IMG/VR virus record: IMGVR_UViG_3300027905_000014 | Coordinates: 1 to 34,816 of that record | Direction: 5' to 3' (one strand) | From: a virus | DNA length: 34,816 nucleotides | Part shown: one piece after another, positions 10,018-31,952 of the stretch | Layout: the number at the start of each line of letters is the position of its first letter | How positions within the stretch are numbered: the first letter of the stretch is position 1 | Program-made: the position numbers and the translations under genes | The notes under the pieces: model-generated | Seen by the model: the letters and a program-made list of their open reading frames with translations, nothing else | Database searches by the model: none | Told to the model about the DNA's origin: nothing

Positions 10018-12012
10018 ATGGCTGACGACGATCTCAAAAAAGAATTTGACGAGGCATACCAAAACTCTTCGGAGAAGTGGTGGCCTTTCTGGCATGAAGC
10101 GGGCAGTGATACGAAGATGACGTTGAACGACCAGTGGGGAAGCGAGGATAAGACCAAGATCAAGAAGCAAGAACGCGAACCGATGTCGTGGAATAAGTGC
10201 AGGCGCATCGTCAACCTACTCTCGGGGTATGAGAGGCAGAACCGGCTATCCATCAAGCTGGACGCCATCGAGGGCGCGGACAGGCGCACGGTGGACCAGC
10301 ACTCGGGATCGCTGCAATACACCTGGAATAAGTGTCGCGGCTACAACGTCATCTCGAATACGTTCCAGTTCGGATCGGTTATGACCGGCCTGGGCATGAT
10401 TGAACTTTACATGGATTATACGTTCGACCCGCTCAACGGCGACATGCGAATGAAGCGGATGCCGTACCAATCTTTCATCCTCGACCCGTACCTGACCGAG
10501 CCGGACCTCTCGGACTGCGCCTATATCCTGACGCGCGATTGGTTGAGCATGGCGCAAATCAAGCTCATGGCCGTGAGCATGGACGACATTAAGGAAAAAG
10601 ACCTCAAGGACTTGCAGAAGCGAGGGAAGGACCACAAGTTTCCGAAGGCACCGCCGTCCAAGGACTTCAAGGGGAAAAATTACTTCCGCGTTGACCGCTT
10701 TTTCAGGCGTGATACCGACAAGGCAACGCTGCTTTACGAGCCAACCAGCGGAAGAAGCTGGGACTACGACGGCAAGCCGGGCGAACTCAAAGAGTTTTTG
10801 GCCTCTCCTATCCCCGAATTGGGGAAGAATTGGGGCGAGATTGTCCAGACGCACGAGTATCAGAAGGCCGTCGTTAAGATGGGCCTGTTGATTGAGGGGC
10901 AGGAGTTTTACAACGGGCTTGAGCCCCACGGACTGGATGATTACCCGTTCACCGCCTTCATGGGCTACTTCGTTCCCGAGCATGACGACTTCCGCAAGCG
11001 GTTGTGCGGCGTGGTCAGGGACATGCGCGACCCGCAGACCGACTTGAACCACCGGCACATGAAGCTGAACGACATCATGGATAACATGGTGGACTTCCTG
11101 GTGGTCAAGCCCGGTGCGCTCGTCAATAAGAAGCAGGCGTACCAGCGCGGCTCGGGCGTACTGTGGATGAAGGACGACGAGGAAGGCCGGTCCTACGAGT
11201 ACGGCAAGGACGTGAATCTCATCCAGGGGCGCGGCGCGGCTCCGGGTGTGCTTGAGTCTATCCAGTTGGCCGACAAGGCGCTTGACGAGGTTCCTGGAGG
11301 AAACGAAACCCTCATGGGTATGCCGAGCAAGGACGATCCGCAAGAAGCGTGGATGATGGGCAAGCTTCGGATGCTCGCCGGTCTGACCATCTTCCAACCG
11401 CTCTTCGATAACTTGGAGACCGGCATTGCGGACCTCGGCGTGAAGAGCCTCAAGATGATTCTGGCGAACTACCCGGCGAGCAAGATAGGCCGCATCCTTA
11501 ATCAACCGCCGACGAAACAGTTCTATGATAAGGACTTCGCGCAGTACGACGTTCTGGCAACGCAGGGCTTGCAGACCAAATCGCAGAAGCAAATGAAGTT
11601 CGCGCAGTTGGTCAGCCTGGCGCAGATGCAGCAGTTCCAAGGCAAGTTCCCGCTGTCCATGATTTTGGAAGCGAGTGACCTGGAATTGGCGACGGACTTC
11701 ATAGCCGAATTGAAGCAGGGCGAGCAGATGCAGAAGCAAATCGGCATGGTCACTTTGAAAGCAAAGCTGGCCGGTGACAACGCAGAATTGCAAGCCACCA
11801 TCGCCACCGCCGAACTCAAGAAGGCGCAGGCGCAGAAGGCGATTGCCGACGCGGCCAAGACAATGGCGCTCATCAAGCAAATCCCCGAGGACCAGATGCA
11901 CAAGCTGATGGAAATGATGATCGAACTCGATAAGAGCGGCGGCTTCGGCATGGAAGCCAGCGCCCTCCCGGCCGGGCCGCAAGCGCCGACAAACCCGATA
12001 ACGACGAGGTAA
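10018..12012 (+). CDS. Portal protein, P22-like
   Basis: A 664-residue protein immediately after TerL. The N-terminal region has WNKCRRIVNLLSGYERQNRL, followed by the expected beta-rich stem (YMDYTFDPLNGDMRMKRMPY) and FILDPYLTEPDLSDCAYI. This is the pattern of P22-type portals, which form the dodecameric ring for DNA passage. The last 130 residues are a long amphipathic helix (from QKQIGMVTLKAKLAG to QAQKAIADAAKTMALIKQ), resembling the C-terminal barrel of P22 gp1, here followed by a short Pro-rich end. Length fits P22-like portals (about 700). Confidence 0.9.
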   Translation: MADDDLKKEFDEAYQNSSEKWWPFWHEAGSDTKMTLNDQWGSEDKTKIKKQEREPMSWNKCRRIVNLLSGYERQNRLSIKLDAIEGADRRTVDQHSGSLQYTWNKCRGYNVISNTFQFGSVMTGLGMIELYMDYTFDPLNGDMRMKRMPYQSFILDPYLTEPDLSDCAYILTRDWLSMAQIKLMAVSMDDIKEKDLKDLQKRGKDHKFPKAPPSKDFKGKNYFRVDRFFRRDTDKATLLYEPTSGRSWDYDGKPGELKEFLASPIPELGKNWGEIVQTHEYQKAVVKMGLLIEGQEFYNGLEPHGLDDYPFTAFMGYFVPEHDDFRKRLCGVVRDMRDPQTDLNHRHMKLNDIMDNMVDFLVVKPGALVNKKQAYQRGSGVLWMKDDEEGRSYEYGKDVNLIQGRGAAPGVLESIQLADKALDEVPGGNETLMGMPSKDDPQEAWMMGKLRMLAGLTIFQPLFDNLETGIADLGVKSLKMILANYPASKIGRILNQPPTKQFYDKDFAQYDVLATQGLQTKSQKQMKFAQLVSLAQMQQFQGKFPLSMILEASDLELATDFIAELKQGEQMQKQIGMVTLKAKLAGDNAELQATIATAELKKAQAQKAIADAAKTMALIKQIPEDQMHKLMEMMIELDKSGGFGMEASALPAGPQAPTNPITTR

Positions 12013-12017
12013 CGAGG

Positions 12018-12197
12018 ATGAACGTAATTTTCATGGGCAAGCCGACCGACAAACAGCGCCAGGCTTCCGCGATGCGCCAACGGGTACACGGCATGGGGCA
12101 GCAGCCCGAGGTGAGTTTCACCGTGACCGTTGCCGGGAGTGAGGACGCCGCGCCGCCTGTTGTCGAAGACCATTCCGAAGAGGCGGACAATGGGTAA
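12018..12197 (+). CDS. Small hypothetical protein after portal
   Basis: A 59-residue frame with ATG at 12018, five bases after the portal stop and with ACGAGG upstream. It reads MNVIFMGKPTDKQRQASAMR, then a short beta stretch (EVSFTVTVAG) and an acidic tail ending EEADNG. The stop at 12195-12197 overlaps the glycosyltransferase start (12190). The exact fit between neighbours is the main support. Function unknown. Confidence 0.55.
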   Translation: MNVIFMGKPTDKQRQASAMRQRVHGMGQQPEVSFTVTVAGSEDAAPPVVEDHSEEADNG

Positions 12198-12771
12198 GCA
12201 CCTGCTCACAGTCGGGACGCCGCACAACGGCAGCATCCGCGCCGAGACGGCTATCTCAATCTTCGCGCTGGCCGATCATCCGGCCTTGGGCGTGGCGATC
12301 AAGTTTGAGCAGGGCGCGTACATCCACCGCAACAGGAACAAGATCATCAACAGCTTTGTCGGTGATTGGCTTCTGTTTGTGGACCACGACATTTCGTTTC
12401 AACCGGCGGACGTTCTCAAGCTGATTGAGTTAAACGCGCCGATTGCGGCCGGGATTTACGGGGACCGTCATGCCGAACGCGGGCCGATGGTCCTTGAGTT
12501 CTACGGCAAGGACATGAAGTACAAACGCATGAACCCCGAGCATATCCTCGACGTACCTTTCAAGGTGGACGGGATGCCTACGGGGTTCATGCTCATCAAA
12601 GCCGAGGTGGCGCGGCACATCCTAAGCAAGAATCATGCCCCATTCAACCACGACGAGGTGGACGGGGGCGGCGAGGACGTGGCGTTTTGCCGGGTGTGCA
12701 AGCGCATGGGCATTAAAATCTGGTGCCACCCCGGCGTGAAGGTCGGGCATATCGGGACGAAGGTTTACTAG
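12190..12771 (+). CDS. Glycosyltransferase-like protein, GT-A fold
   Basis: A 193-residue protein. I chose the ATG at 12190, giving MGKHLLTVGTPHNGSIRAET; the more upstream ATG at 12130 would overlap the previous gene in another frame. Family-like blocks are IHRNRNKIINSF, WLLFVDHDISFQPADV with a DxD-type Asp 65/Asp 67, DGMPTGFMLIKAEV, and the late acidic and metal-binding region GGGEDVAFCRVCKRM and GVKVGHIG. This suggests a nucleotide-sugar-dependent transferase. Phage versions can glycosylate virion proteins, DNA or host surface; the target here cannot be told. Its place between portal and capsid genes favours a virion target (inference). Confidence 0.78.
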   Translation: MGKHLLTVGTPHNGSIRAETAISIFALADHPALGVAIKFEQGAYIHRNRNKIINSFVGDWLLFVDHDISFQPADVLKLIELNAPIAAGIYGDRHAERGPMVLEFYGKDMKYKRMNPEHILDVPFKVDGMPTGFMLIKAEVARHILSKNHAPFNHDEVDGGGEDVAFCRVCKRMGIKIWCHPGVKVGHIGTKVY

Positions 12772-18700: not shown

Positions 18701-20794
18701 ATGGCGTTCGCACCGTACACCATCGCAAACCAGCGCGTCGGCCTCGAACTCGACATAGACGCCTGGCTTTTGCCCAAAGACGGGTTCACCAAACTTGAGA
18801 ATTTCTTTCTGTACCAAGGGAGATTGACCAAGCGCAACGGGTACTCGCTCTTCGGGCAGATGGTTCATTCCGCGACGGTCGCGGTGGGAACGGGCAACGG
18901 CAGCACCAAAACCTTTTCCGGCGCTTTCACGAACGTACCTATCCGGTGGACAGATTTTTCGATCACCGACGCCGGGCTTGAGACTTTCACGGACATAAAC
19001 GGCACAGGGACGCTGGCCGGTAGTCTCGGCGGCGCGGGAACGATAAACTACACATCGGGCGTTTATTCGGTCACGTTCAAGAACGCGCCGAGCAATGACG
19101 TTCCAATCACCGCCGCCCTCAACTGGTACTCCGGCCTGCCGGTCATGGGCTTGTTCAACTACTCGACCGAGACGGGCGGGCAGACGCAGCTTGCTTTCGA
19201 TACCAAGCGGATGAATAGGTTCGACTCCGCGTCGGGTCAGTGGGTGGACGTGACCGGGACCGATATTTGGACCGGAACAAGTTCAAACTTTTTTTGGCTG
19301 CAAAACTGGCAGAACTCCGCGTATATCTGCAACAACAACGACCAGCTTTACGTCTACGACGGGACGACTCTCAAACCGTGGGTCATCGACACGATCAATC
19401 AGCAGTATTTCGCCTCGGGAATACAAGTCAATACGGGCGACGGCGTGACGACGACCTTCTCCGGAACCGGGCCTTTCGGCCTCGCCAGCTTTTCAAACAT
19501 CGTACCAGGTTCTTTTGGTGCGACGGACGGCCAAGAGAACTTCACCGACAACGGCAATGGCATCTTGACCGGGCAGGGCGGCGGAACCGGGACGATCAAC
19601 TACGCGACCGGCGCGTACTCGCTCACGTTCAATACCGCACCCACGGCCGCCGACGTTATCTCGGTTTCGTTCACGTACAACACTGCCTCGGGGTCGAACC
19701 ATGTCACCGGTTGTTCGTTCATCGCGCAATGGAAAAACCGGCTGATACTCTTCGCCCCGACCGAAGACGGTATTACGATGAATCAACGTATCCGGTGGTG
19801 CGATATCGGCAACCCGGATGTCTGGCCCGAGCAAAATTATCTCGACGCGGACACGACCAGCGTACTCATAGGCGGCGCGTGGATTTCCGACAACATACTC
19901 GGGTTCTTCAATCGCGGCGTCATGCTCCTGCAATACCTAGGAGAGATAAACCTCCCGTTTTTTTGGAAAGTTATCGCCTCAAACGAGGGAATCCTTGCCG
20001 TAAACACGCCCTTGGAGCTTGAGGACGAAGTGCTGTTCCTGTCCATCACTCGTTTTGCCACGACTGACGGCAACCAAGTCAACTACATCGACAGTAAACT
20101 GCCGAATTTTATTATCAATATGAATCAGTCCTTGGTTCATTTCGCCTCCTCTGGGTATTACGAGCCGCAGAGCCAGGCGTGGTTTTGCTACCCGAGCCTT
20201 GCCGCGACGACCGGCAACGACCAGATTTTGGTGCTGAATACCGAGGATAATTCGTGGGCGATTTTCAATATCCCCTTGACCTGCCTTGGCTACTACGAGC
20301 GCGGCAACAGCCTGATTTGGGCTGACCTCACGGACGTAACCTGGGCGCAGATGAACAGCCCCTGGGGCGCACCGTACTTGCAGGGCGGCTATCCGATCAT
20401 GCTGGGCGGCGATGCGAACGGCAATGTCTGGCAGATGGACCAGGGCGGTTTTGACGAGGGAACGGATTCGATCAACGCGATTGCAACCACCGGCCAGATG
20501 AACCCGTTCCTTGCGGCGGGGAAAAAGGCCAGGCTTGGCAAGGTGAAAATCCTTTGCGACACCAACCCGGCCGCGACCTTGACGCTCAATATGTACGTCG
20601 ATTCACAGTCCACGCCGTACCTGACCTATCAAATCCCGATGACCGACAACAAGGGCGGGGCGAAATCGTGGGTCACCGTGCCGTCTATGGCGGACGGGGA
20701 GTTTCACCAGTTCGATTTGGCGCATGACGGCCAGGGCGGCGGCGTCGTCATCCACGCGATCATTCCATATTTCTCCGAGGCAGGCCCGATATGA
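18701..20794 (+). CDS. Tail hub/DNA-stabilisation-like protein with duplicated beta domain
   Basis: A 697-residue protein placed where P22-like phages encode the gp10-type hub. The start (FLYQGRLTKRNGYSLFG near 36-52) and later blocks such as NWQNSAYICNNNDQLYVYDG, CSFIAQWKNRLILFAPTEDG and SSGYYEPQSQAWFCYPSLAA suggest a beta-propeller-like body. Two copies of a beta domain of about 82 residues are inserted at 61-142 and 242-327. Both follow G.G.T.TFSG...F.......FTD.NG.G.L.G..GG.GTINY..G.YS.TF..AP. The family assignment to gp10-like proteins rests on position and propeller-like repeats. The stop overlaps the next ATG. Confidence 0.65.
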   Translation: MAFAPYTIANQRVGLELDIDAWLLPKDGFTKLENFFLYQGRLTKRNGYSLFGQMVHSATVAVGTGNGSTKTFSGAFTNVPIRWTDFSITDAGLETFTDINGTGTLAGSLGGAGTINYTSGVYSVTFKNAPSNDVPITAALNWYSGLPVMGLFNYSTETGGQTQLAFDTKRMNRFDSASGQWVDVTGTDIWTGTSSNFFWLQNWQNSAYICNNNDQLYVYDGTTLKPWVIDTINQQYFASGIQVNTGDGVTTTFSGTGPFGLASFSNIVPGSFGATDGQENFTDNGNGILTGQGGGTGTINYATGAYSLTFNTAPTAADVISVSFTYNTASGSNHVTGCSFIAQWKNRLILFAPTEDGITMNQRIRWCDIGNPDVWPEQNYLDADTTSVLIGGAWISDNILGFFNRGVMLLQYLGEINLPFFWKVIASNEGILAVNTPLELEDEVLFLSITRFATTDGNQVNYIDSKLPNFIINMNQSLVHFASSGYYEPQSQAWFCYPSLAATTGNDQILVLNTEDNSWAIFNIPLTCLGYYERGNSLIWADLTDVTWAQMNSPWGAPYLQGGYPIMLGGDANGNVWQMDQGGFDEGTDSINAIATTGQMNPFLAAGKKARLGKVKILCDTNPAATLTLNMYVDSQSTPYLTYQIPMTDNKGGAKSWVTVPSMADGEFHQFDLAHDGQGGGVVIHAIIPYFSEAGPI

Positions 20795-21075
20795 GTAATC
20801 CTTCAACCCTCTTGCCGCTAACCCGGCCCATCTACTTCGACAAGGACCAGGCCCGCACGGACCCGCAGGGGCATCTCCAAGACGTTGTAAACGACTTGGG
20901 CAAGATGTATACGGAAATTGCGATTGCTCACAACACAAGCCCGCAGGCGGTCAAGCAGGCGCAACAGCCGACACCCGCGCCGGGGCAGATCATGGTTTGG
21001 ACGAGCCTCGCGGACGGGAAGACATATCTGCTTTTCAACAACGCGGGAACGATCAAGAAAACGGAGATGACCTAG
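20791..21075 (+). CDS. Small tail-associated protein
   Basis: A 94-residue protein, overlapping the hub gene by ATGA and the ATP-grasp gene by TAGTG, so the three are translationally coupled. It reads PLTRPIYFDKDQARTDPQGH, a helix (VVNDLGKMYTEIAIAHNTSP), a Gln/Pro linker and a short beta end (PGQIMVWTSLADGKTYLLFN). The C-terminal piece resembles ends of other small phage structural proteins. Exact role unknown. Confidence 0.6.
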   Translation: MSNPSTLLPLTRPIYFDKDQARTDPQGHLQDVVNDLGKMYTEIAIAHNTSPQAVKQAQQPTPAPGQIMVWTSLADGKTYLLFNNAGTIKKTEMT

Positions 21076-22400
21076 TGGGCAAAGGTATCTTGTTCGTCAC
21101 CAACTCCGGGGAAATCCTTCCGATTGCCTACCGCATGAGGCAAGAGGGCGCGGCCTGTGAGGTGTATATCCACCATCCTTCCTACCACCACGGCTATGAG
21201 GGCTTGCTCAATCGAGTCAAATTGCCCGACCTCAAGCGGGCGTTTCAGAAGAGCGATATGGTGGTGTTCGATATTACCCGGCCCAACAAGCGCGACAAGT
21301 GGGATTTGGCGATGCTCGGGATGTTCGGCCTCAAGGGAAACAACCGAAGCGTGTTTGGCCCGGTAGCGGACGTGATGAAGAAAACTCACCCGGTTATCGG
21401 CGGCGCGGAGTGGTGCGAGGACATAGAACTCGACCGCGCCTTGGGATTTGAGATCGCCCAAAAGATGGGCCTCAAGATACCGGAGTGGAAAGAGTTTTCG
21501 TCTTTCAAGGACGGCGAGAAATTCCTCGACGGCCAGAAGGATATGTGGATTCTCAAGCCGCAGTTCAACGAAGGATTCACCCACAAGGAAGAGTGGGCCG
21601 GTGAATTGCTCGCCAAGATCAAGGAGTGGAAGGCGAAGGGCAAGAAAGAGTTCGCCTTCATCCTCCAAAAGCTGGTCGCTGGCGTGGAGATTTCCACGGA
21701 AGCGTGGTTTGACGGCGTGAACTTCCGCACGTTCAACCACACAGCCGAGGAAAAGCTATGGATGACCGGAGGTCTTGGCTGCGCGATAGGCTGTCAGAAC
21801 ACCGTCGTATGGATGAAGGAGGACGAAAACGGACTCCTTTGCAACGAAATACGCAAGATCGAACCATACCTCCGGTCTTGCAAATACGTCGGTCCGGTGG
21901 ACCTCAACGTCATCGTGGACAACCAGACTATGTGGTTCTTGGAATTTACCCCGCGATTCGGGTACGACGCACTGTACGGACTCCTGACTCTGCTCGACGG
22001 CCCGGTGAGCAACTTCTTTTACTCGGGGTTCAGGGGGAAGTGGAAGAAAGGATATGCAGCGGCGGCCCGCATCACGATCCCGCCTTTCCCGTACCAAGAC
22101 GACAAACTTTTGAAGGAACTTGCCGCTGGGGTCCGCATCGAAAACGAGATCAACCGAACTCCCTGGTGCTGGTTTGAAGATGTTCGCCAGGGCGCGGATT
22201 GCCTTGAAGTTGTGGGCGCGGACGGGATTGTCGGCGTCGTGACGGCTCATGGGAAGACGATTGAAGAGTCCGCTAACGAGTGCTATTCGAGAATCAAGCG
22301 GCTCAAGATCGCGGGGAAACTGCAATACCGAACCGACTTAGGCAAGCGGGCTGTGCGGGCGATGACCAGATTACAGGGGTGGGGCCATGTCATTAGATAG
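21075..22400 (+). CDS. ATP-grasp ligase, PurD-like, encoded among virion genes
   Basis: A 441-residue protein from the GTG at 21075, which overlaps the previous stop as TAGTG. In-frame sequence further upstream lies inside the previous gene. An N-terminal Rossmann-like domain (GILFVTNSGEILPIAYRM, DMVVFDITRPNKRDKWDLAM) precedes an ATP-grasp domain: WILKPQ (Lys 161), ILQKLVAGVEISTEAWFDG (Glu 205, Glu 209), YVGPVDLNVIVD (Asp 276, Asn 278) and WFLEFTPRFGYD (Glu 290). The order matches phosphoribosylamine-glycine ligase (PurD), but EFT replaces the usual EFN at the Mg site, and GYD replaces GDPE. It probably ligates a carboxylate to an amine using ATP; the substrate is unknown. The neighbours are tail genes, not purine genes. 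Confidence 0.8.
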   Translation: MGKGILFVTNSGEILPIAYRMRQEGAACEVYIHHPSYHHGYEGLLNRVKLPDLKRAFQKSDMVVFDITRPNKRDKWDLAMLGMFGLKGNNRSVFGPVADVMKKTHPVIGGAEWCEDIELDRALGFEIAQKMGLKIPEWKEFSSFKDGEKFLDGQKDMWILKPQFNEGFTHKEEWAGELLAKIKEWKAKGKKEFAFILQKLVAGVEISTEAWFDGVNFRTFNHTAEEKLWMTGGLGCAIGCQNTVVWMKEDENGLLCNEIRKIEPYLRSCKYVGPVDLNVIVDNQTMWFLEFTPRFGYDALYGLLTLLDGPVSNFFYSGFRGKWKKGYAAAARITIPPFPYQDDKLLKELAAGVRIENEINRTPWCWFEDVRQGADCLEVVGADGIVGVVTAHGKTIEESANECYSRIKRLKIAGKLQYRTDLGKRAVRAMTRLQGWGHVIR

Positions 22401-22824
22401 CAACATCCGCCTCGTCCGCATCGACGACCCATTTCTGATCCCTCGGCATCTAATCGAGCAGTTGCCGCAGGACGTATTCGACGTGGGCAGCTTCCTACAG
22501 AATTATACCGCCAGCCCCGCGAACCTGCTTTTCCTTGTAACGGATCGCAAAGACGATTCCGAGCCGCGCAAGGGCTTTTTCTGGGCGCAGGCGAACACCT
22601 TGAGCAACACGCTTCAAATATGGGTGTTGAGCCTGGACAAGAATTTCAGCCGCGAACATCCCGCCTTTTTGCAACTCGTGTTGGTCCCTCACTTCAAAGG
22701 GGCAGCGCGAAAGGCGGGTATGAAGCTAGCTTGGAGCCGGTTCAGGCCGGTGCGACAAACCGAAACGAAACACGGCCGCGTAACCGAGTGGCGCAATTAT
22801 CTTTTGGAGGTGGCAAATGGGTAG
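22387..22824 (+). CDS. Hypothetical protein linked to ATP-grasp gene, possibly GNAT-like
   Basis: A 145-residue protein overlapping the ATP-grasp gene by 14 bases and the next gene by 8, so it is tightly coupled. The core NLLFLVTDRKDDSEPRKGFF, WAQANTLSNTLQIWVLSLDK and HPAFLQLVLVPHFKGAARKA has the strand-turn-strand-helix feel of an acetyltransferase-like (GNAT) fold. However, the usual acetyl-CoA loop (Q/RxxGxG/A) is not clear, so this is only a possibility. The C-terminus (VTEWRNYLLEVANG) completes a beta strand. It may act with the ATP-grasp enzyme. Confidence 0.6.
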   Translation: MSLDSNIRLVRIDDPFLIPRHLIEQLPQDVFDVGSFLQNYTASPANLLFLVTDRKDDSEPRKGFFWAQANTLSNTLQIWVLSLDKNFSREHPAFLQLVLVPHFKGAARKAGMKLAWSRFRPVRQTETKHGRVTEWRNYLLEVANG

Positions 22825-23767
22825 TGTCATGGGTTCAAGCCCGTCCGTTCAAACGATGAACACCCAAAACCCGATGCAGCAGGGTTTGATGTCGGAACTC
22901 GGGAACATCGTACAGGGACAGCTGGGCCAGGGCGTACCAATTACCCAGAGCCCTTTGCAGACATCCGCCTACGGCACGGCGCTGAATCAAGGCAACAACG
23001 TCCAGAACTACGCGGGCCAGATCGCGGGGGGACAGGGGCAACTGCTTTCGCTGGAAAACAACCTGTCCGACTTGTCGAGCAGCCTCAACCCGGTCAAGCA
23101 AAACCTCTCTTCGCTCGAAAGCGGCCTGGCCCCGACGATGCAGCCGTTCAACGCGGGCCAATCCTCGGCGCAGTTCGGAGCACAGGTCGCGGCCCCCGCG
23201 ATGAACAATTTCACGCAGAACGTCACGCCGGGTATCATGGAGCAGTTTGCGGCCTACGGCGGGGCGAACTCGGGCGGGGCGCGTAAGGCTCTCGCGGATG
23301 CGGGCGTGAACCTGGAAACCAACCTCTCCGGGCAGAAGTCGGCGTTCATGCAGAACCAGCAACAGCAATCCTTGCAAAACCTCGTGTCGGGAACGAGTCT
23401 GTCCGGCCAGCTTGCGGGCCAGCAAGGGACGCTCACTGGCTTGCAGGGCAACCTGACGAACACCTCCGGCAATCTGGTTCAGGATTCCTCGAACATGACA
23501 AAAATGTCGAGCGACATCATCAACCAGATTTTACAGGGCGGGTTATCGGCAGGGTCGAGCCAATTCAACGTCCAACAGGCGAGTCAGCCTTGGAATAACC
23601 CGTACCTCCAATACCTTATGCCGCTTATCTCGGAGCAGACGCAGACGGCGGTGGCCGATCCTGGGCAGAGTAGTGGGATTGGTGGAATACTTGGCGGTTT
23701 GGGGTCCATTGGCGGCGCACTCGGCGGGACTAGCGGGCTTCTCGCCGCACTGCCCGCTGCTATCTAA
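22817..23767 (+). CDS. Gln/Asn-rich internal virion (ejection-like) protein
   Basis: A 316-residue protein low in charge and very rich in Gln, Asn, Ser, Gly and Leu. It has repeated amphipathic segments (GGQGQLLSLENNLSDLSSSL, SLSGQLAGQQGTLTGLQGNL) and a hydrophobic Gly-rich C-terminus (GGILGGLGSIGGALGGTSGL). Composition and position, before a charged protein and a giant protein, resemble the ejection-protein gene group of P22-like phages (gp7, gp20, gp16). I infer it is packaged in the head and released into the host envelope. Its ATG overlaps the preceding gene by 8 bases. Confidence 0.6.
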   Translation: MGSVMGSSPSVQTMNTQNPMQQGLMSELGNIVQGQLGQGVPITQSPLQTSAYGTALNQGNNVQNYAGQIAGGQGQLLSLENNLSDLSSSLNPVKQNLSSLESGLAPTMQPFNAGQSSAQFGAQVAAPAMNNFTQNVTPGIMEQFAAYGGANSGGARKALADAGVNLETNLSGQKSAFMQNQQQQSLQNLVSGTSLSGQLAGQQGTLTGLQGNLTNTSGNLVQDSSNMTKMSSDIINQILQGGLSAGSSQFNVQQASQPWNNPYLQYLMPLISEQTQTAVADPGQSSGIGGILGGLGSIGGALGGTSGLLAALPAAI

Positions 23768-23780
23768 AGGAGGAAAGATC

Positions 23781-24596
23781 ATGCCGGGTATGCCGATAAT
23801 CCAACTCAACGGCGGACGCCAGCGGGAAAACCCGTTGAACGACTTGCCGCAAGCCCTAGGCAGTCTGATGGAAGGAATTAACAAAATTCGGGATGGGGTA
23901 AATCTGCCGAAAGACATGGCGACGCTTGCCGCATTGAAGAGTGATCCCAAGAACATCGACCCGAAAACGGGCGGGCTGACCACCGAAGCCTTGCGGACCG
24001 CACTTCCTGATTTGAAAAGCCAGCGCGCAAAAGATCAAATCAATCAGGCTTTGATGACGCAGTTGATCCCTCCCACCGTCGACCCGTACAAACAGTGGGA
24101 AATGCAGTTCAAGGCGAAGCAAGAGCAAGACCGGGTTGCTACCGAAGATATGAAGGAAAAGGGCAGGGAAGCTAGAGATGCGGCCCGAGAAGAACGTATG
24201 GCGAAGCAGAGTGCGATACAGGAAAAATTGCACCTTGCCACCATCGGGGCCAGCGATGAAAGACAGCGCAAAGCCCTAGAAGCCGCCGCCGCCACACAGC
24301 AAAGGAACTTCGAGCACCAAGAAGAGATGGAGCGGCGCAAGGAAGAGGCCAAGGACAAAGCGGCCGGACGCGGCACGACGACCGAGACCGTCACCAAGGA
24401 CGACGAGGGCAAGGAAACGAAGTCCACTACCACGACCAAAAAGGCTGGACCGGAATCGGGCAAGAAAGCCCTGGCCGCCCCGCCCTCTCCCGGTTCGGCG
24501 CTCGATGTAGGCACGGCCAAGAAATATCTGGACGCCAACGGCGGCGATAAGGCCAAGGCTTCTGCCCAAGCCAAGCAGGACGGTTGGAGTTTTTAA
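23781..24596 (+). CDS. Charged coiled-coil internal virion protein candidate
   Basis: A 271-residue protein. The ATG at 23781 has AAAGGAGGAAAG just upstream; the frame is open back to 23673 but that part lies inside the previous gene. After an N-terminal domain (PLNDLPQALGSLMEGINKIR) comes a long Lys/Glu/Arg coiled coil at about 105-200 (MQFKAKQEQDRVATEDMKEK, NFEHQEEMERRKEEAKDKAA), then a Thr/Lys-rich linker and a C-terminal piece (GTAKKYLDANGGDKAKASAQ, ending GWSF). Sited between two other ejection-type proteins, it is likely a virion internal protein. Its stop overlaps the giant gene start (TAATG). Confidence 0.6.
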   Translation: MPGMPIIQLNGGRQRENPLNDLPQALGSLMEGINKIRDGVNLPKDMATLAALKSDPKNIDPKTGGLTTEALRTALPDLKSQRAKDQINQALMTQLIPPTVDPYKQWEMQFKAKQEQDRVATEDMKEKGREARDAAREERMAKQSAIQEKLHLATIGASDERQRKALEAAAATQQRNFEHQEEMERRKEEAKDKAAGRGTTTETVTKDDEGKETKSTTTTKKAGPESGKKALAAPPSPGSALDVGTAKKYLDANGGDKAKASAQAKQDGWSF

Positions 24597-27500
24597 TGCC
24601 TGACGTTTTTGACCAAGCCCTTGGGCCTAATCCCACAGGGAAAGCGCCGGTCCCAAAAGCAAACGTCTTTGATGAGGCCGCCAAGGCTCCTGACGTTTTT
24701 GACCAAGCGGTCACACATCAGGCGACCGCGCCCGTTCTTGTCTCCAAAGACCCGGCGCAAGACCTCCTCGTCAAGAAAGGTGGCAAGGCGCTTCCTCCCG
24801 TGTCGCAGGCTCCGACCGCGCCGCTCAAGGACAAGGAAACGATCACGGACGGACCGGGCAAGCAAGAAACGCCTGACTATGACATGGCAGGGTATGAAGC
24901 AAAATACGGCAAGCCGGATCAGTCCAAGGGGCAACACCTTACGGACGAGTTCAAGCTCCCGAATCACATCACATTTTCGTCTGATAGCAAGTATAGTTCC
25001 GATGAAAAGCAGGGCGGCAAGTGGAGCAAAGACGATAAGGGAACTTGGCATTTCTCCCCTTCTGATTTCAACTTGAAGCAGCATAGCCGGGAAGAATTGG
25101 TCAACTACTTCAAGCGGGCTGAACCCGACTCAATTTTGGACTTGCCAGAAGAAAAGAGCCTCGGGCACGGACCGGCCAAGCCGCCAGCGAAGTCCGACCT
25201 CCCGACGCACCTTGCCCCCGACTACGAGCGATCCCTTGCCCACTGGGGCGAGATCAAGAAAGAGGCAACCCGATTCGGCGGCATGGTCACTACCCCGTTC
25301 AACGAGATGGTCAACGGTGCTGCCAAGACATTTGACGAACTCGCCAACGTGCCGCACAAAGTCGCCCCCGAAATCTTCAACGAGGAATCACCCGCGTTCC
25401 AAGATGCGATGAAAACGGCCATTGCCGCGCAACCCTCGCAACAGGAAATGGCGAAAGCCAGGCCCGGGACGCAGTTCGTCGGGCAACTTTTAGGCGGGCT
25501 ACTGCCCTATGCAGCCGCTTTCGCAGCCCCGGAGGCGGTGGGCGGTTTTCTCCCGATGTCAACGTTAATGCAGAAGGTGGGCTCCAACATCCTTGCCTTT
25601 GGCGGCGCGGACGCGATGAGGGCCGTGGGTAAGGGCGGCGGCATGAAGGAAGCCAATGAAGCCATAGCCGACGCGATACCTACGGCGGTTCTTTTCGCCG
25701 TAGCGGGGAGCATCCCTACCGGCAAGGCAAGTCCGTGGCTCTCCAAGGCTATCTCCTCCGTCGCGGGCGGTGCGGCCTTCGCTGGTAGTGCGGCCCTCCA
25801 GGGTGAACGAGACCCTTTCAAGCTGGCCGTGGACCTTGGCACTGGCATCGGGTTGAACCTCCTCCACGGCGGCAAGCCGGAAGAGATTGAGGCGTACAAG
25901 AAAGGATGGTCCGAGGGGAAAAAAGTCTCCGTCGATCAAATGGCGAAGGTGGATGAAATTCTCAAAGAGGTCGAGAAGTACAAACCCGAGCATCCCGACC
26001 CGGAATCCCGGGCGACGATCAATGCCCAAGCCGGAGTCCTCACCAATCCGAAGTCCACGAAAAAGACGATGATTGTAACGCCCGGGTCGCCCATGCCTGA
26101 CGATTTGCCCAAGGGCGCGACCACCGTGCAAACTCCTTACGGCACCGTCGTCACGACGGACAAAGAGGCGGCGGCAGTTCTGGCGCAGGAACCGACACAG
26201 GAAAACATCGGCAAGTACGTCCTGAACTTTGAGGGCGGCAAAGACCCAAAGGCGACCGTGGTTGTCCAGGCTCGGGACGCAAACGGGCTTGTTGTCGGTG
26301 AAATTGCGGCAACACCCGAGCAAGTTCCCGCCGCTACGGAGGCGATGAAGGGTCAAAGTCCCGTGGACAACGTGACCATAACCACGCCGGATAAGGCGCT
26401 GGAAGAGCGGGAGGCGCGGCGAGCGGAAGAACTCCCCGTCGAAACCGGGGAGCATGGCGTAACCATCGGAGAAGCGGAAGAAGTCTCGCCAGCGCAACCG
26501 TCCATCCCTGAATCCCTGGCCGCCAATGCGGCTTGGGCTAAAGAGGAAATTGCCCGAGTGAAGGCCGAGCCCGGCGACCCGGTTTTGTCCCATGTCTGGG
26601 GCAGATTGGAAGCGGCAAGCCTGGACAAACAACAACTGCGCGACATTCGGGAGAAGTACGGGCCAGGCATCTTTGCCAAGAAAGGCAAGGGCCGGGCAAT
26701 AGATCAACTAGAGCAAGACCTCGAACGAAACGGCAACCCGCTCCGCTCCGACGTGGGCAGCGACAACCTTGCAAGCTATCTTATCGAGCGCGGAGAGCCC
26801 CGGCGTGATACCATTGCCAAGGGTGTGGCGGCAGTCCACGCCGAGCGTGAGCGCATGGATGAGATGATTCGCAAGGAAGGGCCGTATGGCGGAATCGTCA
26901 CCGTCCACGGCGGTCCTGAAGCTCCCCAGGCCGTCAAACAGGCCATTGAGGACACGGCTCAAATACTTAAAGACGCCCCCAGTCAGATCAAAGGCGCATG
27001 GGACGCGATCAAAGAAACCGGGCAAAAGGCTTGGGACTGGTACAAGGAACCCCCGAAGTTTACCGAGTTTAAGGGACTGCTCGGGCGCTACCTTGGCGAC
27101 CGCCAAGTGGCGGGCCTGGCGAACCAGCGCATCCTCAAGAAGATTGCCGCCGCCGTGCCGTCCAAGGTGGCGCGGGAGGGCATCACAAACTGGATTCAGG
27201 CAGGGGGCGACAAATCCATCCTGCAATCCAGGGCCGAGGCGTCCAAGGGCGCATTGAAGCGCGGCTACGAGGCGGCGTTGAAACTCACCCCTGCCGAGGA
27301 AACTTTGGCCCGAGGCATCTCCTCGCAGTATGCCGACCACCTTGAAGAAGCCCGGCGGTCTGGTGTCCTTGAGAACGGCCTGGAAAATTACGTCAACCAG
27401 CTTTGGGACCGGAGCGGCCAGAACAAAAAGGCGTGGGCCAAGATGCGCTCGCAAATCAACGCGGGTATGCTCAACACAAATTTCAAGTACGCCATGCAGC

Positions 27501-29305
27501 GCGTTTTTGACAGTTACTTCGAGGGCGAGCAAGCCGGGTTTAAGCCTCTAAACAAGGATATCGCCTACCTGTTCGGCCATTACCACCAGAGCATGTTTGA
27601 GGCCATTTCCGCCCGCAAAGCGATCAAGTCGATGTTTGAGGGCAAGGCCAGCGACGGTCAGCCGCTTGTCTCGGTGGCCGGTGGGCGCGTTATTCCCCAA
27701 GAAGCGGATAGCCCCCACCTTCTGCGACCGAAGGCCATGTACGCCGAGTCTGTGTCCGGCGAACGGTACAAGCCAATCGACCATCCTGCCTTGAGAAAGT
27801 GGAAATGGGTGGAGAATGGCGAGGAAGGGAAGCCAATTTTCATGCAGGGCGATGTTTACGTACACCCCGAGGCGTACAAACACCTGAAAAACGTACTGTC
27901 TCGGTCAGCCGTTCAAGACAACGTGGTTGGCCGGGGAGCATTGGCCCTTTCCCGAGACTTCAAGAGCTTGCTCTTGTCGGGGATGCCCTCGGGATTTCAC
28001 CAAGTCAACCTTGCCACTCACGCCCTTTTTCACAAGATCAATCCGATGAACTGCCCACCGATTGATTTTGACCAGCCGTTGCAACGCCAACTCGTGGACC
28101 ACGGCATCATGGTTTACAACCATAGCGCCCTGGCCGAGTTTTCGGAAGGCATCGGCACTACCAAGGGAAGCCTGGCCCAAAAAATTCCCGGCATGGGCCG
28201 CCTCACGCAAAAATATTCCGAGTACCTTTTTCAAGACCTGATTCCCCGGTTTAAGATGAAGCTCGGCGTCGAGGCTTACGCAAGAAATTTGGAAAGGTAC
28301 GATGGGAAATACACCAACGACCAGATTTTAGAACTCACCGCCAACCAGGCCAACGCCGCGTTTGGCGAACTGAATTACAAATACATAGGCCGTAACCCCA
28401 CGCACCAAGATATTTTCCGCCTCATGGCGCTGGCACCAGACTTTCTCGAAGCCCGCGTCAAATTTGTAGGCCAGGCTTTGAAACCGGGCGGGCGCGAGCA
28501 GGCCGCCGCTCTGATCCGAGGAACTCTTGGAATGTACGCGATTGGCGTGGTAGGCAATCTCCTTTTCAGTGACGACCACGAAGCGCATTGGGACAAGCCC
28601 TTCACAATGGTCCTCAACGGGAAGGACTACTCTTTGCGCTCCATCCCCGGCGATATGGAACACCTCTTCAAAGACCCGCGCAGTTTCGCTTACCACCGGC
28701 TCAACCCGACAACGACCAAACCGCTTGGCGAATTTATGTTAGGGGGGCGTGACCAGTGGGGGCGCAAGCGTGACATTTGGCAACAGGGCGTGGACTATTT
28801 GAAAGGCGCAGTCCCTATTTCACTTCAAGGCATGGTCAACAAGAAAGAACAGACCATTTGGGATTCGGTGCTGCAATCCCTTGGCGTGACCTCCTACAAG
28901 CATCGGACCGCTTCGGACCAGATTATCGGGGATTACTTTGACAGCCACGCATTGCTAAACCAGACCCAGGAAGAGCGGGCAAAGGGCGAGCATCGGCGCG
29001 ACTTGGTGAAACTCGGCCAATCGGGCAAGCCGGACTTCGAGGCGAAGCTGAAAGCCGACACGAACCTGACCGACAAGCAGAAGGCCAACATCCGAGCCAG
29101 GGTGAAAGACGAAAAGGGCTACCTGTTCAAGCAGGTAAAAGATATTGACGTTGCTTTCGAGGCGTATCAGAAGGGAACGCAGGAAGAAAAAGCGGTGTAC
29201 GGCCCGATCCTCAAAAAAAGGATCATGCACCTGCTCGACAGCGACCCGAAGAAGTACAAAAAATATCGAGACATGCTGAAACAAGAGAACCAAAAGGAGC
29301 AATAG
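24596..29305 (+). CDS. Giant internal virion/polyvalent-type protein (1569 residues)
   Basis: The largest gene in the window. The ATG at 24596 overlaps the upstream stop. The N-terminus repeats a short motif, PDVFDQAL, NVFDEAAK and PDVFDQAV, within 45 residues. A hydrophobic Gly/Ala segment lies near 292-390 (QLLGGLLPYAAAFAAPEA, AIPTAVLFAVAGSI). Residues 400-800 are charged and beta/helix mixed. From about 820 a helical domain begins (FKGLLGRYLGDRQVAGLANQ) and continues through GMPSGFHQVNLATHALFHKI to a charged C-terminus. The layout suggests a large polyvalent or ejection protein that travels with the DNA, like P22 gp16 or N4-type internal proteins, but much longer. I see no definite enzyme motif. 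Confidence 0.75.
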   Translation: MPDVFDQALGPNPTGKAPVPKANVFDEAAKAPDVFDQAVTHQATAPVLVSKDPAQDLLVKKGGKALPPVSQAPTAPLKDKETITDGPGKQETPDYDMAGYEAKYGKPDQSKGQHLTDEFKLPNHITFSSDSKYSSDEKQGGKWSKDDKGTWHFSPSDFNLKQHSREELVNYFKRAEPDSILDLPEEKSLGHGPAKPPAKSDLPTHLAPDYERSLAHWGEIKKEATRFGGMVTTPFNEMVNGAAKTFDELANVPHKVAPEIFNEESPAFQDAMKTAIAAQPSQQEMAKARPGTQFVGQLLGGLLPYAAAFAAPEAVGGFLPMSTLMQKVGSNILAFGGADAMRAVGKGGGMKEANEAIADAIPTAVLFAVAGSIPTGKASPWLSKAISSVAGGAAFAGSAALQGERDPFKLAVDLGTGIGLNLLHGGKPEEIEAYKKGWSEGKKVSVDQMAKVDEILKEVEKYKPEHPDPESRATINAQAGVLTNPKSTKKTMIVTPGSPMPDDLPKGATTVQTPYGTVVTTDKEAAAVLAQEPTQENIGKYVLNFEGGKDPKATVVVQARDANGLVVGEIAATPEQVPAATEAMKGQSPVDNVTITTPDKALEEREARRAEELPVETGEHGVTIGEAEEVSPAQPSIPESLAANAAWAKEEIARVKAEPGDPVLSHVWGRLEAASLDKQQLRDIREKYGPGIFAKKGKGRAIDQLEQDLERNGNPLRSDVGSDNLASYLIERGEPRRDTIAKGVAAVHAERERMDEMIRKEGPYGGIVTVHGGPEAPQAVKQAIEDTAQILKDAPSQIKGAWDAIKETGQKAWDWYKEPPKFTEFKGLLGRYLGDRQVAGLANQRILKKIAAAVPSKVAREGITNWIQAGGDKSILQSRAEASKGALKRGYEAALKLTPAEETLARGISSQYADHLEEARRSGVLENGLENYVNQLWDRSGQNKKAWAKMRSQINAGMLNTNFKYAMQRVFDSYFEGEQAGFKPLNKDIAYLFGHYHQSMFEAISARKAIKSMFEGKASDGQPLVSVAGGRVIPQEADSPHLLRPKAMYAESVSGERYKPIDHPALRKWKWVENGEEGKPIFMQGDVYVHPEAYKHLKNVLSRSAVQDNVVGRGALALSRDFKSLLLSGMPSGFHQVNLATHALFHKINPMNCPPIDFDQPLQRQLVDHGIMVYNHSALAEFSEGIGTTKGSLAQKIPGMGRLTQKYSEYLFQDLIPRFKMKLGVEAYARNLERYDGKYTNDQILELTANQANAAFGELNYKYIGRNPTHQDIFRLMALAPDFLEARVKFVGQALKPGGREQAAALIRGTLGMYAIGVVGNLLFSDDHEAHWDKPFTMVLNGKDYSLRSIPGDMEHLFKDPRSFAYHRLNPTTTKPLGEFMLGGRDQWGRKRDIWQQGVDYLKGAVPISLQGMVNKKEQTIWDSVLQSLGVTSYKHRTASDQIIGDYFDSHALLNQTQEERAKGEHRRDLVKLGQSGKPDFEAKLKADTNLTDKQKANIRARVKDEKGYLFKQVKDIDVAFEAYQKGTQEEKAVYGPILKKRIMHLLDSDPKKYKKYRDMLKQENQKEQ

Positions 29306-30801: not shown

Positions 30802-31197
30802 ATGGCCGTCACCGCCACTCCGGTTTATCCTCAGGCTAACAACACCCAGGACACCAACATCGCCACAGCAGCGACCAATACCACCGTTTTCACGGCGGGC
30901 GCGAACGGCGGCTATGTCTACGACATTCTGATCTCGACCAACGACACGGCGAATCAGGTGGCACAGCTCTTCAAAAACACCTCGACCATCCCGCTCGCTT
31001 CGATCTCAATTCCGATAGGCGCGGGCGGAGCAAACGGCAACAACGCCATCAACCTCATGTCGGCGGTGTCCTGCTACGCCGACGAATACGGAAACCGGGT
31101 GCTGCGTCTCAAGGCCAACGAAATCCTCAAGGTCGCCATCACCGCCATCACCAGCACCAAGTCGTTCCAGGTGTTCGCCCAGGGAGCGGACCTGTAA
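30802..31197 (+). CDS. Fibre-cluster beta-rich protein
   Basis: A 131-residue protein, one base after the collagen-like fibre stop, with GGAGG about twelve bases upstream. It has strings of Thr/Asn/Ala and beta segments (GGYVYDILISTNDTANQVAQ, IPLASISIPIGAGGANGNNA, VLRLKANEILKVAITAITST). The fold is probably a beta-sandwich decorating or tip domain. Its stop overlaps the next start (TAATG). Family not recognised. Confidence 0.6.
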   Translation: MAVTATPVYPQANNTQDTNIATAATNTTVFTAGANGGYVYDILISTNDTANQVAQLFKNTSTIPLASISIPIGAGGANGNNAINLMSAVSCYADEYGNRVLRLKANEILKVAITAITSTKSFQVFAQGADL

Positions 31198-31952
31198 TGG
31201 GCTCCCCTCTCGGCGTCAGGATGCCCCGGCGGGGGACGGCGAAGCGGTCATGGCCTTCTCCGGCAACCAACGACGCCAACTGCATTTTGCTTCTGCACGG
31301 AGGCGGCGCGAACGGCTCGACCACGTTTCAAGACGAATCGTTTGCAGGAAACAATGGAAACGGAGCGTCGATAACCAATCAAAACGGAACAGGGTATTCC
31401 ACGGCGCAAAGCAAATTGACCACGTCATCCATTCGATTCAATGGAACAAACCAAAGTCTGACCTGGGCGGCGCGACAGGCCGACATCCAATTCGGTTCCG
31501 GAGAGTTCAATATCGGCATGTTTTTTAAGGCTGACAATCCCAACACAAGTCAAGGAGTTCTCTGCACAACGGCCGGCGGAGCGGCGTCAGCGTGTTCATT
31601 CCACCTCGAACAGGCGAACAACAAGGTGCATTTTAATTTCTATTACGATGCGGCGAATAGCATAGTTTCCGTTGAAACCGCCATGTCCGACACGAATTGG
31701 CATTGGGCCGAGGTCTGCCGGGACTACAATACCCTACGCCTGTATCTCGACGGGGTGCAGGGGGCATCCGCCGACCTCACCGGCAAGTCGATGAACGGCG
31801 GAACGAATCCGCTTGTTTTTGGTTCTTACTATTCTTACAACATCTGGTGGGGCGGCTACCTGGAAGAAATTTACATCAGCAATATTTGCAGACACCGTAG
31901 TGGGACTTCGTATGCGCCCCCGACTTCCCAAATCGGCCCGAACGCGAGGTAA
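31197..31952 (+). CDS. LamG/concanavalin A-like lectin-domain protein
   Basis: A 251-residue protein. After a basic leader (GVRMPRRGTAKRSW) it shows the pattern of a laminin-G-like jelly-roll: CILLLHGGGANGSTTFQDES, SSIRFNGTNQSLTWAARQ, FGSGEFNIGMFFKADN, NWHWAEVCRDYNTLRLYLDG and GYLEEIYISNICRHRSG. These match the LamG_3 domain, in which W/H...R....LYLDG and a late (E)(I)(Y)ISNIARH motif are typical. Such phage proteins usually bind sugars on the host or act as fibre tips. It is probably part of the receptor-binding apparatus. The start overlaps the upstream stop by one base. Confidence 0.78.
   Translation: MGSPLGVRMPRRGTAKRSWPSPATNDANCILLLHGGGANGSTTFQDESFAGNNGNGASITNQNGTGYSTAQSKLTTSSIRFNGTNQSLTWAARQADIQFGSGEFNIGMFFKADNPNTSQGVLCTTAGGAASACSFHLEQANNKVHFNFYYDAANSIVSVETAMSDTNWHWAEVCRDYNTLRLYLDGVQGASADLTGKSMNGGTNPLVFGSYYSYNIWWGGYLEEIYISNICRHRSGTSYAPPTSQIGPNAR

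Follow-up and report, generated by a model that had tools for sequence, protein, structure and literature searches.

A PurD-derived ATP-grasp ligase family in the late virion operons of environmental phages, with a predicted new substrate

INTRODUCTION

The enzyme PurD (GAR synthetase; PF01071, PF02843, TIGR00877) binds phosphoribosylamine (PRA) through two loops, GREHA and GPEAPL. The amine of glycine is held by a glutamate, E295 of E. coli PurD (E292 of the Aquifex enzyme) (PMC8880213). Viral purD and GART genes have been read as auxiliary metabolic genes (AMGs) of purine synthesis (PMC11360552, PMC11097641, PMC12043954). Roles for other ATP-grasp enzymes of phages have been predicted too. 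Amidoligase systems of the LUZ24/phiEco32 type (PF14395, PF12224, GATase and ATP-grasp) were predicted by Iyer et al. 2009, as cited in PMC10580990, and in UFV-P2 the LUZ24-type ATP-grasp enzyme is found among the early genes (PMC3890496). The R2K clade of ATP-grasp enzymes (CDC123 family) is stand-alone in caudate phages, where a protein-modifying role was proposed (PMC4431377).

Here we analyse an ATP-grasp gene in an IMG/VR virus record of 34,816 bases, the whole of which is called the window. Its product shares with PurD the full-length fold, the ATP-grasp core, the C domain with its RxDIG end, and the Glu, Lys and Arg residues of the ATP and carboxylate site. It differs from PurD in having no GREHA or GPEAPL loop, in the change of EFN to EFT or EFS and of DPE to sequences of the YDA or WPL type, and in the replacement of Glu185 by Gln (Aquifex numbering); moreover it lies on a separate branch of the tree, in a late phage operon and with no purine genes. 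The literature searched, which was a partial set, contained no description of this family.

The window ligase resembles the enzyme of the LUZ24/phiEco32-type systems in being a phage-coded ATP-grasp protein for which the formation of peptide or amide bonds is proposed, but it lies in a late operon and not among early genes. Kinship with the ATP-grasp enzyme of the UFV-P2 amidoligase cluster was not detectable (hhalign probability 0.9%), and the proteins of that cluster had no match among the window ORFs. PF14395 and PF12224 were likewise unmatched in the window, a result of little weight since the positive controls were unmatched too. The likeness to R2K is that of a stand-alone phage ATP-grasp ligase; the window ligase matches PurD and not R2K, which we take to be set apart from it. 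The genes of the viral surveys are alike in appearing PurD-like to annotation tools, a comparison made by description and not by sequence.

RESULTS

The ligase gene lies in a tail and ejection operon

The late genes of the window are arranged in a T7-like order, i.e. tail, 94-aa protein, ligase, 145-aa protein, two internal-virion-like proteins and a 1573-aa ejection-like protein, similar to the order of genes 12, 13, 14, 15 and 16 in T7. The window also encodes a P22-type portal (PF16510, E 1.6e-59). The arrangement is that expected of a podovirus-type tail/ejection operon, in which most tail and ejection labels come from synteny rather than from family matches.

All the genes of this operon are on the plus strand. 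The 697-aa tail protein (18701-20794) is T7 gp12-like by position, has homologues preceding the ligase in loci L021-L024, and weakly matches proteins annotated as phage particle or tail components. Its gene is overlapped by 4 bases by that of a conserved 94-aa protein (20791-21075), which has homologues at the equivalent position in L021-L023 (E 5.5e-6). The ligase (21075-22400) follows, and then the 145-aa gene (22387-22824). The next gene encodes an internal virion or ejection-like protein of 316 aa (22817-23767), T7 gp14-like by position, whose homologues are directly 3′ of the 145-aa gene in L021-L024. A second internal-virion-like protein (23784-24596, with an inferred start codon in a frame open from 23673) is placed as in L022, L024 and L105, and the 1573-aa protein (24584-29305) corresponds in size and position to the giant ORFs of L022, L024 and L110, with neither a PHROG nor a Pfam match. 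A scan for promoters and terminators across the operon gave results at chance level.

The original prediction placed the ligase among tail and ejection genes with every junction coupled, and both points agree with the synteny and coordinates. The ligase shares one base with the gene upstream and overlaps the 145-aa gene by 14 bases, and the latter overlaps its own successor by 8. The upstream partner in this overlap is the 94-aa ORF, however, and not the tail gene as had been proposed.

Elsewhere in the window there is a glycosyltransferase family 2-like gene just 3′ of the portal gene (12130-12771; PF00535 E 1.5e-4, just below the cut-off). L105 has a GT2-like gene between internal virion genes (10846-11496) that is not closely related to it. 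A lectin-like protein (31197-31952; Laminin_G_3, E 8.6e-13) is encoded in the probable tail-fibre region.

The ligase is derived from the PurD fold

The reading frame of the ligase is open from a TTG at 20997, and the likely start is the GTG at 21075. It overlaps the upstream stop codon by a single base (TAGTG) and follows a GGAG at a distance of about 9 nt, and the relatives L021-L024 use the same start. The product is 440-441 aa in length, ending at 22400.

As a single sequence the ligase matches TIGR00877 with E 7e-8, but at 31.7 bits this is well below the equivalog cut-off of 288 bits, and its matches to GARS_A and GARS_C are also under their cut-offs. A profile of 23 family members matched Aquifex PurD (2yw2) along its whole length with E 5.6e-43, and the first eleven PDB matches of that profile are all PurD. 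The AlphaFold model (pLDDT 93.3, pTM 0.91) has the full PurD fold, and the fifteen PDB structures closest to it in fold are without exception GAR synthetases. Thus the overall fold with N, A, B and C domains is found by profile, by AlphaFold and by PDB comparison, as had been predicted for a full PurD-like ATP-grasp protein. The window ligase has both the fold and the catalytic Lys, Glu and Arg set of the ATP-grasp carboxylate ligase superfamily. Pairs of family members with unsaturated dS have dN/dS values of ~0.05-0.1, which in these comparisons indicates purifying selection on the family. Given this low ratio, the TIGR00877 match and the profile match to 2yw2, the ORF is not a chance one.

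It had also been claimed that no purine pathway gene is near. Indeed AIRS_C and Formyl_trans_N were unmatched in the record while the positive controls were detected, and the other scanned ORFs of the window had no match to purine families.

A large family on environmental contigs

Single-sequence scans with the window ligase found no close relatives. Relatives were reached only through an alignment seeded by the copy in the Manatee Spring phage (MW202796), and IMG/VR was then searched by patterns drawn from the alignment of the ligase family. Relatives were thereby located on at least 571 contigs of IMG/VR, counted among the first 600 pattern matches listed. Among 50,697 GenBank phages MW202796 is the sole clear member. 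Its copy (42140-43471) is a full ORF that is unannotated there; the record is labelled Myoviridae sp., and its gene order looks T7/podovirus-like. The window ligase had no match among the PHROGs, and the family is without a named PHROG, three members weakly matching one unnamed PHROG.

Other phage-record matches that were examined are ordinary PurD. Three candidate members, MT838306, MT835991 and phage Y11 (L018-L020), were rejected on that ground. Two of these records from phage collections, L018 (MT838306) and L020 (OQ572412), carry ordinary bacterial purD, and L018 is a fragment of a bacterial pur operon with other pur genes; both probably represent host sequence and not genes of a phage.

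In a species-level genome collection two contigs were found by pattern. One (L100) has its ligase amid tail and ejection genes, and the other (L101) agrees with the viral contig L059 in length and in match position. Relatives on plasmids are rare. Scored with the phage profile these are from Halarchaeum (L218, 355 bits), Roseomonas (L219, 250 bits) and Sphingomonas (L217, a truncated copy, 209 bits). Those of Halarchaeum and Roseomonas lie outside phage modules; the Roseomonas gene adjoins a type III polyketide synthase and an aminotransferase, and the truncated Sphingomonas copy adjoins a SET-domain gene. The plasmid relatives are possible cellular sources or recruits.

A maximum-likelihood tree was calculated from 66 rows, including 16 cellular PurD, the three plasmid relatives and one divergent plasmid PurD-like row (L220). 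The 16 cellular PurD together with L220 are divided from the phage family and the three plasmid relatives by a split with support of 100/100 and long branches. The window ligase falls within a clade of ten rows (support 100/99), of which the nearest are ~45-49% identical to it.

The catalytic core is kept and the substrate sites are changed

Residues were compared in a joint alignment of the 16 cellular PurD and 46 phage members, using E. coli numbering. The functional sites of PurD, as given in PMC8880213, were mapped by means of the Aquifex PurD profile match and the joint alignment. E102, K145, K216, E286, R290, G292, R416 and D418 are kept in all 46 phage members, and in each of them there are the conservative changes K105 to R, D214 to E and E187 to Q. 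By contrast, R11-E12-H13 of the GREHA loop is found in none of the 46, and the GPEAPL loop is replaced or deleted in every one, while both loops are present in cellular PurD.

The segment equivalent to EFNxRFGDPE of PurD is E289-F-T-P-R-F-G-Y-D-A298 in the window ligase (21942-21971, plus strand), where it would contribute to the substrate and metal site. The EFT triplet itself (21942-21950) was correctly identified in the original prediction. At the position of N288, which is asparagine in 16/16 cellular PurD, 45 phage members have threonine and the remaining one serine, so that in this alignment the change of EFN to EFT or EFS is a trait of the whole ligase family. D293 is replaced by Y, W or F in 46/46. 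Conserved glycine-ligase residues had been named as something that would speak against a new function; E295, the residue holding the glycine amine, is lost throughout, with A (40 members), L or C in its place.

This pattern says that the ATP and carboxylate site should be working, and that donor and acceptor should be new. With its catalytic and ATP-site residues kept, but neither the PRA loops nor the glycine-amine Glu left, the protein is very probably a carboxylate ligase, active and ATP-dependent, and not a GAR synthetase. The family has lost the parts by which PurD recognizes its substrates and, judged by these residues, probably joins another pair of molecules late in infection. The proposal that the altered motif reflects a new substrate is therefore well supported.

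The position of the gene differs between clades

The genomic setting was surveyed at 113 dereplicated loci, where gene labels came mostly from synteny. The ligase is in the tail slot at 10 loci, by the terminase or portal at 29, and near ejection-like clusters at 36; at a further 26 the locus includes a structural cluster of some other label, and the remaining 12 are without one. In all, 101/113 loci thus carry a labelled structural gene cluster, near the ligase or elsewhere on the stretch analysed. The evidence on the terminase/portal side comprises a terminase (phrog_2, E 1e-22), a capsid protein (phrog_9953) and a weak portal match. Both neighbours are on the ligase strand at 93 of 109 loci.

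A Pfam survey of 142 neighbours within four genes of the ligase gave holins, lysozyme, peptidases, cell-wall hydrolases, fibre domains and single glycosyltransferase matches. Purine, amidoligase and base-modification families were absent from the 22 Pfam families listed for these neighbours, and a search for enzymes that recur beside the ligase gave only lysis, fibre and isolated glycosyltransferase genes.

The ligase occupies the tail slot, the terminase/portal region or a position after the giant ejection protein, depending on the clade, so that no single structural protein is its constant partner. Such variation in position favours a diffusible enzyme over a component fixed in a single assembly. 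We also note a family of ~130 aa with a conserved HExxE-like motif that is frequently the immediate neighbour of the ligase (at L046:9266-9667 and 13 further loci).

The neighbouring GNAT-fold protein

The 145-aa gene has the place of T7 gene 13 (PF11090), between the tail tube gene 12 and the internal virion gene 14. Sequence kinship with T7 gp13 was not found by hhalign, and the PHROG and Pfam families differ. The proposal that the product is GNAT-like is supported by its predicted fold and by its relatives. An AlphaFold model of the family (eleven rows) is GNAT-like with pLDDT 83.5, and its PDB matches are GNAT acetyltransferases including RimI (best E 1.6e-5). The relatives in L102 and L103 pass Pfam Acetyltransf_1 and match phrog_1249, and the window copy has no Pfam match, Acetyltransf_1 included. 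An identity as YutD (E 0.25) was rejected.

In the acetyl-CoA pyrophosphate loop (R/Q-x-x-G-x-G/A) the glycine is absent from the window copy. The x-K-G of the CoA loop is kept in the three copies from loci without the ligase (L102-L104) and eroded in several that adjoin it, in a small sample compared by eye. The 145-aa protein is a degenerate GNAT-fold protein, and in the window it is probably no longer an acetyltransferase.

The gene is directly 3′ of the ligase in the window clade (L022, L024, L105, L107, L108 and L110, and in an overlapping frame in L109). On the fragment records L102, L103 and L104 the tail gene is followed by the small gene, GNAT and then the internal virion gene, and the ligase is missing, whereas the ligase is found without GNAT in L100 and in other clades. 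Ligase and GNAT are therefore not an obligate pair. In the Manatee Spring phage the GNAT gene is in the tail slot, with the ligase four genes further on. The GNAT gene is thus one of the tail/ejection slot, and beside it the ligase has been either inserted or lost. The original prediction of a system composed of the ATP-grasp enzyme and a small partner is not upheld; it had asked whether phage copies form a clade always linked to the gene at 22387, and they do, with the plasmid relatives, form a group apart from PurD on the tree, but a constant link to that gene was not found.

SET-domain proteins (PF00856, E 6.7e-8) share the structural module with the ligase at L013 (105-779), L012, L084 and L090. 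The SET-domain gene of L013 is directly 5′ of the internal virion gene, the slot taken by GNAT in other phages.

DISCUSSION

That this is a real, widespread family of phage enzymes, belonging to a known superfamily and acting on a new substrate, is well supported. As a whole, we tentatively favour the explanation that it is a PurD-derived, active late ligase, distinct from GAR synthetase, with a late protein of the phage as its first-choice target. The enzyme would have arisen from PurD or a PurD-like amide ligase, and would no longer be a GAR synthetase. From the catalytic residues kept, a carboxylate would be phosphorylated by ATP and then joined to an amine, giving an amide product. Glycine is not the expected carboxylate, given the loss of the Glu that held its amine, nor is PRA the expected amine, since both of its loops are gone. 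The ligase would most likely act during assembly or lysis, since it is made from a late virion operon. We infer that the phage's own tail and ejection proteins made late in infection are the first candidates for the target, to which an amino acid or other small acid would be attached. The GNAT-like protein would be the product of a separate tail/ejection-slot gene. A broader proposal, i.e. that widespread and undescribed late enzymes of phages ligate an amino acid or small carboxylic acid onto their own virion or ejection proteins, and that part of the viral 'purD' AMG record is the same enzyme misnamed, seems to us rather doubtful.

A different target is quite possible. The ligase might form an amide from a metabolite of host or phage, such as a nucleotide, a secondary metabolite or a precursor of peptidoglycan, and this product would help with late infection, with lysis or with superinfection exclusion. 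Small molecules are the substrates of PurD-type ligases, lysis genes adjoin some of the phage copies, and the plasmid relatives, one of them beside a polyketide synthase and an aminotransferase, suggest that members of this family could form amides of small molecules. Yet no other pathway enzyme recurs beside the ligase, and its gene is in late virion operons rather than in metabolic or early modules. The place of the window ligase between tail and internal virion genes would also suit an effector packaged in the virion and injected with the ejection proteins, modifying a host protein early, as in proposals for R2K ATP-grasp enzymes and polyvalent proteins; enzyme domains of late genes have been tied to packaging (PMC5512222, PMC4431377). 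Such a role is unlikely for an enzyme that is stand-alone, without a packaging domain, and that in another clade is located between terminase and portal.

Two further readings are less likely still. Were the protein a catalytically dead PurD derivative with a structural or chaperone function in the virion, its location among structural genes would be explained, and the GNAT-like neighbour in the same operon does seem to be without its cofactor loop; but all the catalytic and ATP-site positions tested are kept or conservatively exchanged in 46/46 members, making this very unlikely. Least probable is an ordinary auxiliary metabolic gene, in which a divergent PurD would boost purine synthesis. 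The closest solved structures are all PurD, and the viral surveys cited above report purD/GART as AMGs, but the loss of the PRA loops and glycine-amine Glu in every phage member, the separation from PurD on the tree, the score of 31.7 bits against a cut-off of 288, and a record in which no other purine gene was found all stand against it.

The preferred reading, a late ligase acting on phage proteins, would if correct provide a new kind of modification of virion proteins, and any action on host proteins would equally be a new one. The family is common in environmental phages and nearly absent from isolated ones, and it has kept the core of the ligase and rebuilt the substrate site inside late virion operons. 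Whatever the substrate, a virome gene that is automatically called 'purD/GART' may not be one for purine synthesis, and reports of viral purD/GART AMGs merit rechecking. The residues of GREHA, GPEAPL, EFN and DPE serve as a test that separates the ligase family from PurD.
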